25,427 bases of DNA, from positions 1-25,427 of the IMG/VR virus record IMGVR_UViG_3300010413_000153. One strand, given 5' to 3'. Position numbers and translations under genes: made by a program. The stretch is from a virus. The stretch's first letter is position 1. Each line of letters opens with the position of its first letter. The notes under the pieces were generated by a model, which was not told the origin of the DNA, ran no database searches, and was given only the letters and a program-made list of their open reading frames with translations. Shown here piece after piece: positions 6,816 to 16,620 of this stretch.

Positions 6816-7388
6816 ATGGATAAACCAATCGGAAACGGAAATATTTTTTCAAAATCTTTTTTGCCAGACATTGGAGATATGGCGTGGATAGATTTTGCAA
6901 ATAAAAAAGTTTTTAGTAAAGAATGCTATGCTATATGTAAAAGATTTTTGATTGGTGCAAGTGCAACTGTAGATATCGTGATGGACCCTACCGGATGCAC
7001 AAAATACCATATTATAATGCTCCCATTTTTGTTTAGCGCGTATGGTGCGGGGCCAATTTTTATAGATGTTTATTCCGGTCCTACGGTAACACCTGTGACT
7101 GGTACTATATGGGACGACCAAGAAAGATATCACGGAGCTGGCAATCCTCCCGAATTGATTTTTACATTAAATCCAACGATTACTGATCCAGGAACAAAGA
7201 TGCCACCTGAGTTTTCTATTTTCTCGAATGGAACCGCAGCCATAGCCACAACCGGAGGACAGGCAACAGAGAATTTAATATGCAAACTGAATGTATCAGC
7301 GAAATATTTATTCAGACTTATAAACCAGGAAGGAAACCAAGCTTACGCTCATGCCGGGTTTAATTGGCTTGAGTTTGATAAACCATAG
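6816..7388 (+). CDS. Putative capsid-associated structural protein
   Basis: This 190-residue protein is probably a beta-rich virion component. The segment FLIGASATVDIVMDPTG followed by a GPIFIDVYSGP strand, and the late FRLINQEGNQAY strand, are typical of beta-sandwich phage proteins of unknown role. The N-terminus IGNGN resembles IGNIGNG of the preceding product. No Shine-Dalgarno sequence is visible; the six bases before the ATG are all A. The neighbouring ClpP-type protease suggests assembly on the head. A fibre-like or decoration role is inference. Confidence 0.6.
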   Translation: MDKPIGNGNIFSKSFLPDIGDMAWIDFANKKVFSKECYAICKRFLIGASATVDIVMDPTGCTKYHIIMLPFLFSAYGAGPIFIDVYSGPTVTPVTGTIWDDQERYHGAGNPPELIFTLNPTITDPGTKMPPEFSIFSNGTAAIATTGGQATENLICKLNVSAKYLFRLINQEGNQAYAHAGFNWLEFDKP

Positions 7389-7398
7389 GAGAAATAAT

Positions 7399-8781
7399 AT
7401 GCCTTATAAAATTGTCATAGATGGAATTATTGGCGGATGGGAAATTGACGGACGATATATTCGCAATGAACTTGAAAAAGCTGGCGGCCAACCTGTATAT
7501 GTTGAAATTGCGTCTCCTGGTGGATTTGTTTTTGATGGAATTGAAATTTATAATCTATTCAAAAATTACTCCGGTTTTGTTCACATGCACATTATCGGCC
7601 TGGCAGCCTCTATGGCGAGTTATATTCCTTTGGCTGGAAATAAAATTACAGCCGAAGAAAATGCAGTTTTTATGATCCATAATGTCTGGGGAGGAGTAAT
7701 TGGAGATTACAGGGAATTTGAAAAACAAGGTCAAATACTTCAAGGGCTTACAAATCTTTTGGCAAAGGCATACGCGGCAAAAACAGGAAAGCCACTATCT
7801 GAGATCATAAACTTAATGGATGCTGAGACATTTTTTTTTGGACAAGAAATAATCGATAACGGATTTATCGATGAAATTATACCAGTTGGTAAAAAAGCTG
7901 AATCAAAATCTGATTCTCTATTGCTGGCAAAAATGCAGGTTGAAGATTGCTTTTCCAAAATGAAAAAATTTGAAAATAAAAAAAGAGAAGATATCCAAAA
8001 GGCCGCTGCAATGCTTAATCTCAATGTCCCAATGGCAACTATAAACGGATTTGATAATTCAGTCAAATTAGTTGATGAACCTTGGAGTAAATCAGAGTCA
8101 GAGCAGAGATGGCGAGACCATTCCGGAGTTAGCACAAATGATGATTTGCCGAACGCGAAATATAGGAAAAGATTTGTTTATTATGATTCAGAGAACCAGA
8201 AATCATTATCCGAAGGATACAAACTTCCCATTATGGATTATAAAAATGGCGAGTTCGTAAATATCGCGGCCGTTAGAAACGCTCTTTCAAGATTGCCACA
8301 AACACAGGGAATTCCACAGGATGAAAAAGATAAAGCGGAAAAAGTTTTGAAAAAATATCTTGATAAGTTTAATGATGAAAATGCTCTCATAAATTTTAAT
8401 AATAAACCCGCCGAGTCGGGAAAAAAGGAGGGTTCTAAAATTATGAACTTAGACCAACTTAAGAAAGAACACCCCGATCTGTATAATAAAATTTTACAGG
8501 CGGGGATTGACAGTGAAAAGGAAAGATGGAAAGCGCATCTTGTTTGGTTCGATGCTGCCCCAAAAGAAGTAATTGAGGCAATAAAAAGTGGAGAACAGTT
8601 TACAAATGTTCATCTTTCTATTTATTCCAAGGCAAGCACAGCCAAAAAAGAGGTGCAAGCATCTATTGCTGAAAATCCGGGAAATATCCAAACTGAGACC
8701 GAACTGGATGACGAAGAACAAAAAGCAAAAGACCTCTTATCCGCAACACTTGCCCATTCCAAAAAGGGAGGCAATAAATAA
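7399..8781 (+). CDS. ClpP-type prohead protease with fused scaffold domain
   Basis: This 460-residue protein is the head maturation protease. Residues 1-165 form an S14 (ClpP) domain: EIASPGG (36-42), Ser71 in GLAASMAS and His94 in FMIHN. The third acidic position is Glu143 or Asp141, as often seen in phage relatives. Residues 226-325 hold a second module (YRKRFVYYD, YKLPI, AAVRNALSRL, AEKVLKKYLDKF) also found attached to other phage head proteins. Residues 349-460 are a charged helical scaffold. AGGAGA (7387-7392) selects the ATG at 7399 rather than an upstream in-frame ATG at 7351 inside the previous gene. A second start inside the gene probably produces the scaffold alone. Confidence 0.9.
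   Translation: MPYKIVIDGIIGGWEIDGRYIRNELEKAGGQPVYVEIASPGGFVFDGIEIYNLFKNYSGFVHMHIIGLAASMASYIPLAGNKITAEENAVFMIHNVWGGVIGDYREFEKQGQILQGLTNLLAKAYAAKTGKPLSEIINLMDAETFFFGQEIIDNGFIDEIIPVGKKAESKSDSLLLAKMQVEDCFSKMKKFENKKREDIQKAAAMLNLNVPMATINGFDNSVKLVDEPWSKSESEQRWRDHSGVSTNDDLPNAKYRKRFVYYDSENQKSLSEGYKLPIMDYKNGEFVNIAAVRNALSRLPQTQGIPQDEKDKAEKVLKKYLDKFNDENALINFNNKPAESGKKEGSKIMNLDQLKKEHPDLYNKILQAGIDSEKERWKAHLVWFDAAPKEVIEAIKSGEQFTNVHLSIYSKASTAKKEVQASIAENPGNIQTETELDDEEQKAKDLLSATLAHSKKGGNK
8425..8445 (+). promoter_or_regulatory. Internal ribosome binding site for the scaffold
   Basis: AAGGAGGG (8425-8432) precedes an in-frame ATG at 8443 by 10 bases. It is among the best Shine-Dalgarno sequences in the window although it lies inside a coding region. 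The layout matches lambda gene C/Nu3 and Mu I/Z, where the scaffold is translated from within the protease gene. Confidence 0.75.
8443..8781 (+). CDS. Putative internal scaffolding protein
   Basis: This is a 112-residue product from an internal start in the protease frame, equal to protease residues 349-460. It begins MNLDQLKKEHPDLYNKI, a pattern I recognise at the start of scaffold domains in Mu-like phages. It is rich in charged residues and predicted helical, with an acidic stretch (ELDDEEQ) and a Lys-rich end. The scaffold would shape the prohead and then be degraded by the protease that shares its C-terminus. The strong internal ribosome binding site supports separate synthesis. Confidence 0.65.
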   Translation: MNLDQLKKEHPDLYNKILQAGIDSEKERWKAHLVWFDAAPKEVIEAIKSGEQFTNVHLSIYSKASTAKKEVQASIAENPGNIQTETELDDEEQKAKDLLSATLAHSKKGGNK

Positions 8782-13519: not shown

Positions 13520-13900
13520 ATGGCAAGTCAAGGCGGTCCTATTGTAAACATGAGTATATCTGGGCGTACATTCGCCGTAACTCAGGATTCAGACCCACCA
13601 ATAGATTTGGGCGGGAATGAAAATGATGTTGAAATGAATGGAGATAAATCTGCCAGGATAGTTTCAAAAATTGTCCCAGGTAAAATCGGTCCTGTAGCGT
13701 TGGTGATAGACCATGCAAACGGTGACCAACAGTTCATCCAGGAAATCAGGGATAATAAAGAGCTGGTCGATGTCAGCATAGAGCTGGCGGATGGTTCAAT
13801 TTTTTATCATCGAGGTATCATCACTGATGCCGCTGAGTATAAGCCTAAAACTGGGACAATGGACGTTACCAGTAAAGGCGAACCACTGACGAAGCAATAA
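13520..13900 (+). CDS. Tail tube protein, Mu gpM-like
   Basis: This 126-residue subunit forms the inner tube of the contractile tail. VNMSISGRTFAVTQD at the N-terminus, the GNENDVEMNGD loop and the central DGSIFYHRGIITDAAEYKP segment match the Mu-type tube fold, a beta-barrel that stacks in rings of six. AAGGAGG upstream gives strong initiation, which fits an abundant product. It lies directly behind the sheath gene, the conserved order. Confidence 0.9.
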   Translation: MASQGGPIVNMSISGRTFAVTQDSDPPIDLGGNENDVEMNGDKSARIVSKIVPGKIGPVALVIDHANGDQQFIQEIRDNKELVDVSIELADGSIFYHRGIITDAAEYKPKTGTMDVTSKGEPLTKQ

Positions 13901-13919: not shown

Positions 13920-14351
13920 ATGGGAGATAAACAAATAAAAGTAAATCGTGAAACTGCAATCGAAGAATTTGAATTATGGTCCATGGCGTGGCGTATTGGA
14001 AGAAAAATGCGGAACGCAAACCAAAAAGACAAAGAAGAATTCGAGGAAAAGAAAACTCAAATAATTGACCTAATAGAGGACGGTTTTTTGTTGTTCGATT
14101 CTGGAGAGGATTGTCTTGAATATATGTTCCAAAAACCGGAAAAGGCGCGTAATCTAAAAAGCATAAAAATACATCGTCCAAGTGGTGACGCGATAACCAG
14201 CGGAGACAAGTATGAAGAAAAAGCATCCGGACACAGAACATTTGAAATACTCCATGACATGACCGGCAAGGAGGTTGCATTTTTCAAGGGTATAGATTGG
14301 TTAGACCTTGAACCGCTTACAACAATCATGAACATTTTTTTAGCTTCGTGA
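13920..14351 (+). CDS. Tail assembly chaperone, upstream frame (Mu gp41-like)
   Basis: This 143-residue, highly charged helical protein lies between the tube and tape measure genes, the universal position of the tail assembly chaperone (lambda gpG, P2 gpE). A GAGGTAA site precedes the ATG. The last codons run over a T TTT TTA heptamer (14336-14342), where part of the ribosomes should slip back one base and continue into the next frame. Chaperones of this kind coat the tape measure during tail assembly and are absent from the virion. Confidence 0.82.
   Translation: MGDKQIKVNRETAIEEFELWSMAWRIGRKMRNANQKDKEEFEEKKTQIIDLIEDGFLLFDSGEDCLEYMFQKPEKARNLKSIKIHRPSGDAITSGDKYEEKASGHRTFEILHDMTGKEVAFFKGIDWLDLEPLTTIMNIFLAS
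14336..14342 (+). promoter_or_regulatory. Slippery heptamer T TTT TTA
   Basis: The heptamer is in the correct phase: the last base of an ATT codon, then TTT and TTA. Both tRNAs can re-pair after a one-base backward slip. It is the same heptamer as in the HIV-1 gag-pol shift site and one base different from the P2 tail site TTTTTTG. It lies 6 bases before the upstream stop codon. Confidence 0.8.
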
Positions 14352-14557
14352 CCTTCAGCCTTGCCTTAGATGGGCAGGAGGTCGAAAGGAGTGGTTTGAG
14401 TTGGGCGGCAATTCAGTTGAGGCAGATTTTGACAGATTATAACGGTTTGGGAGATTTCAGAAAATTAACATTAGATGAAATCTCTTTTTTTTATGAACCG
14501 TTAATCCCAGGGTTGGCAAAATATCAAAAGCAGCAAATGGAGCAGGATAAAAAATAA
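14348..14557 (+). CDS. Tail assembly chaperone, downstream frame (Mu gp42-like)
   Basis: The downstream part is 69 residues if read from GTG 14348, which overlaps the upstream stop as GTGA. It contains a Trp-Ala-Ala helix (LSWAAIQLRQIL) and a short KLTLDEISFFYE block, as expected for the T-like domain of the fused chaperone. I regard it mainly as the C-terminal portion of the frameshift product. Independent initiation at GTG cannot be excluded, but no Shine-Dalgarno sequence is seen. The tape measure gene starts on its last base. Confidence 0.7.
   Translation: MTFSLALDGQEVERSGLSWAAIQLRQILTDYNGLGDFRKLTLDEISFFYEPLIPGLAKYQKQQMEQDKK
14350..14383 (+). promoter_or_regulatory. Stem-loop stimulating the frameshift
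   Basis: GACCT (14350-14354) pairs with AGGTC (14379-14383). Inside, CCT (14359-14361) pairs with AGG (14376-14378) and GCC (14363-14365) pairs with GGC (14373-14375). A 4-base and a 1-base bulge lie on the 5' side, and the loop is 7 bases. The spacer from the heptamer is 7 bases, the usual optimum for -1 frameshifting. Confidence 0.6.
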
Positions 14558-16620
14558 TGTCCAGGTTTTCTGTAGAGGCAGTATTCAAAGCAATTGACCA
14601 CATGACAGCTCCTATTGCTAAGATGCAGGGAAGTACAACAAGTTTTTCAAAACACTTGCGCCGTGATTTTGCAAAAGCCCAGCGTAGTGTAGAAAATTTC
14701 AATCGTTCAGTTAGGCAGAAAACAGCGCAAGGATTGAAGATGGCCCTCACAGGAGGCGTTATGGCGCTCGGTGTTGGTCTTGGATACGTTGCAAGGGAGT
14801 TTGTAAATTTTGACCATGCAATTGTATCGGCTACTGCTAAATTTAATGATTTGGTACCTGGTTCCGAAAATGCAAAAAAGGCAATGGAAGAATTGCGCGA
14901 AGTAGCTCGCAAAATTGGAGCGGAAACTCAGTTCACCCCTACCGATGCAGCGAAGGGATTGGATTTCTTGGCAATGGCCGGATTCAAAAGCAAACAGGCA
15001 ATGGCACTTCTACCAGGTGTTGTAAATTTAGCAACAATTGCAAATACAGACCTTGGCAGGGCAACAGACATAGCTTCCGATATGCTTGGAGCTTTTGGTA
15101 TGGCTACAAAAGAGGCTCTTGATAATCCAGCTATATTGGCAAAAAATTTCACACGCGTACAGGATGTAGTCGCGAAAACAATAACTTCAACAAATACAAA
15201 TATGGAAGACTTGTTTGAGGCAATGAAATTTGGAGGTCCAGCATTCACGTCTGCCGGCCAATCTCTTGAAACTTTTAACGCGATAGCTGGGCGTATGGCG
15301 TCGTCCGGTATCAAGGGAAGCAATGCCGGAACTGCTCTCAGGTCAGCAATGGTTAGATTACAGAAACCGACAAAAGATGTTTTATTGGGATTACAGCAAT
15401 TTGGATTGAGTCAGGAAGATTTAATTAAAGACGGAAAACTCATGGACATGGTGGATATAATGAAACTCATGGAAGAGCGCGGTAAGGGTCTAACTGATGT
15501 ACAGAGAAACTCTGCACTCTCTGCCATAACCGGGAAAAATGCATTTAGCGCGTGGGCGGCAGTATTCAAAGAGGGGGTATGGCAAAGCGAAGCATTGAAA
15601 AAAAGTTTACAAAATTCCACAGGTGCATCCGCTGCAATGTCGGCAGAGATAAGAAAATCATTACTTAATCGTTTGAAAAGTCTTGGTTCGGCAGCAACAG
15701 AGCTTGGTTTTAAATTTATGGTTGCATTTGAAAAGCAGGGAGGAAATGCAATCGATAAATTGACAAAATTTGTTCGTGATTTCGACCCAACTCCTATAAT
15801 CGAAGGTTTGAAATTTATTGCAAAAGTATTTGTTTTTGTTATAGGTGTAATCAGAGATTTCTGGCCTTTAATCGTTACACTGATAGCAATATGGAAAGGG
15901 TACCAGGCTGTATTATTTGTCGCTGCCGCTGCACAGCAAATTATGAATGTAGTTATGATGGCAAATCCAATTGGTCTAATAATTATCGGAGTAGCGTTAC
16001 TTATTGCCGGCATAGTTACGTTATACAGAAATTGGGACTCGCTCAGTTTGAAAGCAAAAATATTTTTTGGAATATTGTCTTTTGCTTTAATGGGTCCGTT
16101 TGGTTTAATCATAGTCGGATTTATAGCATTAGCCAAACACGTTGGAGGTGTACAAAATGCTTTTATAGTTCTTGGAAAAATAATTGTCAGAGTTCTACTT
16201 GCTCCAATAAATTTATTGATTTTGAGCATTGAAGGAATTTTATATATGATGTCTAAAATTCCAGGTGTTGGCGGCAAATTCAAGGGAGCCTATGAGGCTG
16301 TATCAGGATTTCGTGGCAGGATAAACAAACCATTTGAAATTACAGAATTTGAAGAAAAGAAACGTGAAAGCTTCGGAGTTTTCAAATCAATGATGCCAGA
16401 AAACATGAGAGTCGGTGGACAAGGTGCGACCACGGCAGGGTCTGGTCAAGCTCCAACTACAAGCAGAAGTGTTTTTTCAAGCACTATAGAAAAAATGCAG
16501 AAACAAATTGTTGATATAAATATAAACAATCAATCTGATAATCCGGTAAACGTCGGTAGAGGGCGCCCAATTCATCGCGGTTCAAGGGCTATTGTTCCTG
16601 CATCTGGAAGTGCATCATAG
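14557..16620 (+). CDS. Tail tape measure protein (TP901-type)
   Basis: This 687-residue protein sets tail length and is later ejected. Residues 1-70 are a basic helical start. The TP901-type core follows, with FDHAIVSATAKFNDLVPGS near residue 90, FTPTDAAKGLDFLAMAGF near 128, and the SGIKGSNAGTALRSAMVRL segment near 250. Several hydrophobic stretches occupy about residues 425-535 (VFVFVIGVIRDFWPLIVTLI, then PIGLIIIGVALLIAGIVTLY), which may form the membrane pore at ejection. The C-terminus is Gly/Ser/Arg-rich. Using the lambda rule of about 1.5 angstrom per residue, the tail would be near 100 nm. The start overlaps the preceding stop as TAATG. Confidence 0.93.
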   Translation: MSRFSVEAVFKAIDHMTAPIAKMQGSTTSFSKHLRRDFAKAQRSVENFNRSVRQKTAQGLKMALTGGVMALGVGLGYVAREFVNFDHAIVSATAKFNDLVPGSENAKKAMEELREVARKIGAETQFTPTDAAKGLDFLAMAGFKSKQAMALLPGVVNLATIANTDLGRATDIASDMLGAFGMATKEALDNPAILAKNFTRVQDVVAKTITSTNTNMEDLFEAMKFGGPAFTSAGQSLETFNAIAGRMASSGIKGSNAGTALRSAMVRLQKPTKDVLLGLQQFGLSQEDLIKDGKLMDMVDIMKLMEERGKGLTDVQRNSALSAITGKNAFSAWAAVFKEGVWQSEALKKSLQNSTGASAAMSAEIRKSLLNRLKSLGSAATELGFKFMVAFEKQGGNAIDKLTKFVRDFDPTPIIEGLKFIAKVFVFVIGVIRDFWPLIVTLIAIWKGYQAVLFVAAAAQQIMNVVMMANPIGLIIIGVALLIAGIVTLYRNWDSLSLKAKIFFGILSFALMGPFGLIIVGFIALAKHVGGVQNAFIVLGKIIVRVLLAPINLLILSIEGILYMMSKIPGVGGKFKGAYEAVSGFRGRINKPFEITEFEEKKRESFGVFKSMMPENMRVGGQGATTAGSGQAPTTSRSVFSSTIEKMQKQIVDININNQSDNPVNVGRGRPIHRGSRAIVPASGSAS

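Follow-up and report, generated by a model that had tools for sequence, protein, structure and literature searches.

The tail chaperone gene pair of this virus is very probably expressed by programmed −1 ribosomal frameshifting, as judged from the sequence of the locus and of its relatives. In the window, by which we mean the whole stretch of 25,427 nucleotides analysed (positions 1 to 25,427 of IMG/VR record IMGVR_UViG_3300010413_000153), positions 13920–14557 would act as one recoded gene. Most ribosomes would make a 143-aa chaperone and stop at the TGA at 14349. In a minority, tRNA-Phe on TTT and tRNA-Leu on TTA (14337–14342) would slip back by one base onto TTT TTT, and this tandem slippage on U_UUU_UUA would give a predicted fusion of 212 aa with a C-terminal E'/T-like domain. 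By analogy with gpG/gpGT of lambda and E/E+E' of P2, the short form may coat the tape measure and a few fusion molecules may bring in tube subunits; given such roles, the ratio of the two products would matter for tail assembly. That ratio is about 30:1 in lambda, the shift is two to three times as frequent in P2-like phages (PMC5009743), and two HK97-type chaperone genes show 6 and 7% frameshifting (PMC3711429). We consider the present case a well-supported but ordinary further example of the known lambda/P2-type trick, mostly unannotated in the phage family of the window.

The position of the locus fits this interpretation. Two overlapping frames of the + strand lie between a tail tube gene upstream (13520–13900, +; phrog_4699, E 1.5e-18) and a tape measure gene downstream (14557–16620, +; PF10145, E 3.3e-43; phrog_1533, E 3.9e-75), with a tail sheath also among the neighbours (phrog_165, E 8.5e-86). 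This is the arrangement of the G-GT and E-E+E' kind, and the tube and tape measure matches bear out the placement that the first-pass annotation had read from the letters of the window. The 0 frame encodes the E/G-like chaperone (13920–14351, +). The −1 extension, with the E'/T-like domain, covers 71 codons and a stop (14342–14557, +), and the program-listed ORF at 14348–14557 is its 3' part. In a group of Vibrio phages (L014:5396–6520, L017:5378–6342 and L018:5343–6363) small genes of the opposite strand are inserted as a cluster between the tube and chaperone genes, and the frameshift pair is intact despite the insertion.

The codons ATT TTT TTA GCT TCG TGA, read from 14334 in the ORF at 13920–14351, set the X_XXY_YYZ phase. 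They confirm the slippery heptamer T_TTT_TTA (14336–14342, +) as in phase and 6 nt (GCT TCG) ahead of the stop at 14349–14351, both as claimed earlier, and they agree with the proposed Leu141-Ser142 junction, Leu141 being TTA 14340–14342 and the first −1 codon AGC (Ser142). The −1 frame was also said to be open through the next gene; it runs open from 14312 to 14554, reaches the tape measure gene and closes at TAA 14555–14557, sharing one base with the tape measure ATG at 14557. Any shift has to occur where both frames are open, namely between the TAG at 14309–14311 and the TGA at 14349 that closes the 0 frame (14312–14348, +), and a scan of these 37 nt found no in-phase re-pairing site besides T_TTT_TTA. 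Taken alone the heptamer is weak evidence, because the ORFs of this AT-rich window (39% G+C) hold about 90 in-phase X_XXY_YYZ heptamers and because TTTTTTTA occurs 22 times on its two strands versus 8.3 expected, a count reached in 0 of 100 dinucleotide shuffles. Related sequences therefore had to decide. Elsewhere in the window, an in-phase A_AAG_GGA is found at 8763–8769, 18 nt ahead of the stop of the head protease gene (7351–8781).

The relatives were gathered through the tail sheath and the tape measure, and were also read in isolate records, because the divergence of the chaperone protein defeats single-sequence searches; a query of this kind with it against viral contigs found no close relatives. 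Sampled in this way, the relatives were chosen without regard to the slip site. From seed relatives we built profile models of the 0-frame protein and of the following −1 frame and ran both on the stop-to-stop frames of all loci; the 0-frame domain was detected in 101 loci and the −1 domain in 91. Wherever both domains were detected, in 91 of 91 loci (the window is included, and L103 duplicates L095), the second is in the −1 frame with respect to the first, and no locus carries the two in one frame. Where the second domain was missing, a contig end mostly cut the locus, and in L022 and L016 a diverged −1 extension can be read by eye. L022 is the nearest relative by tape measure (53% identity in the match) with a chaperone on its contig; its sheath is unlike that of the window and its slip site is again ATT TTT TTA. 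The regularity of the frame relation bears on the possibility that the break is an assembly or sequencing error within what is really one in-frame ORF, or a chance alignment of two frames. Homopolymers are error-prone sites, but the same −1 break recurs in 91/91 loci from many sources, isolate genomes included, so that such an error or chance alignment is barely conceivable.

One record has another frame relation. In Flavobacterium phage FL-1 (L015, 5840–5870) the second domain is +1 (or −2) after ACT ATT TTT TCA TAG, whereas it is −1 in the related phages FCV-1 (L016) and phiSM (L105); the odd frame may reflect either a genuine switch of direction or a wrongly recorded homopolymer length.

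Homology evidence was needed for the proposed tail chaperone identity of the 0-frame protein, and it was obtained through the family. The window protein matches phrog_4648 (E 9.1e-19), a family with no function assigned that is matched by 52 of 52 aligned members, and 22 of these 52 also match Pfam PF10109 (Phage_TAC_7, tail assembly chaperone proteins E, 41 or 14) at E<0.1. The protein of Shewanella phage SppYZU01 (L003) passes the PF10109 gathering score, with 29.3 bits against 25. The window protein itself (13920–14348) gave no match to PF10109, falling short of the 25 bits, so the name Phage_TAC_7 reaches it by transitivity. Its structural model (pLDDT 91.5) has as best solved fold match the HK97 tail assembly chaperone 2ob9, with a Z score of 5.5 over 75 residues (the next match scores 3.1) that is middling and below the level excluding common arrangements. 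A Foldseek search of the model against solved structures returned nothing significant by itself; in a viral structure library the model matches named tail chaperones over 64–91 residues. Fold likeness to the HK97 chaperone, as far as the model goes, is suggestive. The chaperone family profile gave no significant match to the single sequences of P2 E or Mu 41.

To describe the site across the family we used 77 non-redundant members (<90% identical in the chaperone), the window and L022 among them, and sought a slip site within the 3'-terminal 30 nt of the chaperone gene. T TTT TTN is found there in 42 of the 77 chaperone ORFs versus 1 of 686 other ORF ends of the same loci (Fisher p 1.6e-46), and T TTN in 75/77 versus 180/686 (26%), counts that treat related sequences as separate, which makes the p-values too small while the contrast is still very large. 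Going by these comparisons, the conserved place of the heptamer is not a matter of chance. The first-pass annotation had named related phages that keep both genes but lose the heptamer as the case against a frameshift; the strict T TTT TTN is kept by 42 of the 77, and a slippery site together with the frame relation by 75. Along with the frame relation in 91/91 loci, this slip site count supports the programmed −1 frameshift in the tail chaperone gene that had been predicted from the window.

At the same place, 33 of the 77 members have a single-tRNA U_UUN site: 13 have T TTY followed by another codon, and 20 have CTT TTA (CTT TTA ATG in 19 of them; examples are L004:7330–7365, L055, L060 and L092). 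Two members have no recognisable slip site. The site of the window is of the ordinary tandem kind. The parsimony reconstruction on the sheath tree requires 20 changes of site class, or 17 when tandem is set against the rest, 7 of these 17 being forced by well-supported branches; the counts could be inflated if sheath and chaperone have recombined. We hold it an even question whether the mode of slipping has changed many times with the −1 product kept, between tandem U_UUU_UUN and single-tRNA U_UUY or an almost invariant CUU_UUA_AUG. With strong and weak slippery sites occupying the same homologous position in different members, the family is a natural series in which to study how phages keep a protein ratio constant when the decoding signal is altered.

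The weaker sites deserve comment. A systematic study in E. coli lists a second class of −1 motifs, the Z_ZZN tetramers, in which U_UUY is shifty given a stimulator and U_UUA is among the motifs just 1.8 to 3.6 times above background (PMC4066793). The CTT TTA ATG group would depend on this weak U_UUA tetramer. Among the members with the peptide Leu-Leu-Met/Thr at the site, 20 of 21 use CTT TTA, all six Leu codons being in regular use. Upstream of the site a strong anti-Shine-Dalgarno match is present in 12 of the 20 CTT TTA members versus 3 of 100 control stretches, usually as GAGG about 13 nt before the tetramer. Such an arrangement may represent a weak-motif plus Shine-Dalgarno design in which GAGG makes up for the weakness of the tetramer; alternatively, GAGG may be a by-product, since the codons there also encode conserved residues.

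Some single cases depart from the T-rich pattern. L082:7380–7436 (CTG TTG ATG GAC TGA) and L104:7264–7320 (CTC ATG CTG GGG TAG) have both domains in the −1 relation without a U run; in the latter a slip could, from its sequence, take place at G_GGG ahead of the stop. In Cellulophaga phage phiSM (L105, 1615–1626) the chaperone ends in GTT TTT TAG, so that the slippery codon and the stop are adjacent (U_UUU_UAG); this may be a shifty-stop variant of the site.

The diversity of sites also bears on whether the fusion could arise from RNA polymerase slippage on the T7 run instead of from the ribosome. The window has seven consecutive T at the site, as this explanation would have it. Runs of six, five or four T are too short for efficient polymerase slippage, but the relatives manage with such runs (CTT TTA ATG, GTT TTC ATG) and keep the codon phase, and the window has many T7A octamers in other places. 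That four or five T suffice in relatives disfavours slippage of the transcript, which we consider extremely unlikely.

The −1 frame behaves as a protein sequence. Family HMMs built without the window found both parts in it (0-frame protein, E 2.9e-25; −1 domain, E 1.7e-17), these being the sole matches among 546 window ORFs. Past the first stop, the −1 frame shows 4968, 3296 and 10421 substitutions at codon positions 1, 2 and 3 (265 pairs of relatives), the third position thus varying most, and the median pN/pS of the domain over these pairs is 0.27. This pattern indicates that the −1 domain is protein-coding and under purifying selection. Its structural model has a pLDDT of 88.7. The window domain had no match in Pfam or PHROG, and the fold search against the viral library returned nothing at E<=0.001, the best hit being a 68-aa unnamed protein.

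A coding −1 frame could also be an ordinary separate gene, translated by coupling at GTG 14348 or TTG 14396, with the T run incidental. Here the window has two possible minor starts of the −1 domain: GTG 14348, which overlaps the TGA stop as it does in 10 relatives (L006, L008, L024, L031 and others), and the in-frame TTG 14396, with AAAGGAG (14385–14391) 4 nt upstream. Some GenBank relatives, moreover, have a small gene annotated at this place. But no start is conserved: in 31 of the 77 members the −1 frame lacks ATG, GTG and TTG between −45 and +60 nt of the stop, and in just 7 is a start there accompanied by a Shine-Dalgarno-like site. The −1 profile begins at the slip-site residues, ahead of any start in the window, and conservation of the slippery run at the end of the gene greatly exceeds chance expectation. 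On these sequence comparisons separate initiation across the family appears unlikely, and as an account of the second frame we find the separate gene very unlikely.

Known systems provide useful comparisons. One close system is P2 E/E+E' (T TTT TTG, −1, PF10109 + PF06528), which shares with the window a contractile tail, a chaperone directly upstream of the tape measure, a U-rich T TTT TTN heptamer near the stop, a short −1 domain and, at family level, PF10109. It differs in its 0-frame protein, of 91 aa versus 143 aa in the window, and in its domains: the window protein misses PF10109 directly, and the −1 domain resembles neither PF06528 (Phage_P2_GpE; no profile match for 42 members) nor the P2 E' segment (no match by hhalign). 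The slippery site of lambda is G GGA AAG. Its gpG/gpGT resembles the window in layout (chaperone, −1 extension, tape measure; PMC5009743), and the lambda tail is non-contractile, unlike that of the window phage. Mu gp41/FS-gp41 has the gene order sheath-tube-41-tape measure in common with the window, and Mu 41 is near the cut-off of PF10109 and matches the chaperone family HMM weakly; Mu is reported to use −2 frameshifting (PMC5009743), whereas the phrog_4648 family shifts by −1. The gpG-gpGT analogue of Vibrio phage phi 2 / X29 is like the window in belonging to a myovirus with a PF10109 chaperone and a −1 shift, at the site AAT TTT TTG. In Vibrio phage phi 2 the pair is already annotated as joined; its chaperone, a PF10109 protein from a different group, is not significant against the family HMM (E 0.02 in a four-sequence search). 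The direct relatives of the gene pair are VP16T, SppYZU01, PY6, AeroV_348 and similar isolates with phrog_4648, in the same arrangement.

In these isolates the second frame has been either missed or split off. It is unannotated in, for example, SppYZU01, PY6, 1.009.O and CKB-S1, and in VP16T apart from a small ORF, and it is given as a separate gene in AeroV_348, PD0307, phiSM and VK58; none of the isolate records of phrog_4648 relatives examined has a joined annotation of the pair. The present analysis corrects the annotation of this pair, which has been overlooked or divided across a widespread group of small myoviruses, and allows phrog_4648, listed as 'unknown function', to be named a tail chaperone.

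Downstream of the slip site the window has a candidate stimulatory hairpin (14350–14383, +; predicted fold), 34 nt long, with stems of 7 bp and 4 bp. A bulged hairpin beginning 7 bases downstream had been proposed; the hairpin and its 7-nt spacer stand, and the defect in it is a 1x1 mismatch, not a bulge. Its predicted energy is −15.4 kcal/mol, with a z of −2.6 for the chosen stretch and of about −1.5 to −2.0 when wider windows are folded. A strong downstream fold (z below −2) accompanies 16 of 75 family sites versus 26 of 300 control stretches (p 0.004), an enrichment that leaves most sites without one, and we rejected the hairpin as a family-wide conserved feature. It is credible for the window phage, where it may stimulate the shift, and across the family it may be an optional aid. 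A Shine-Dalgarno-like AGGAGG (14376–14381) sits within its 3' arm.
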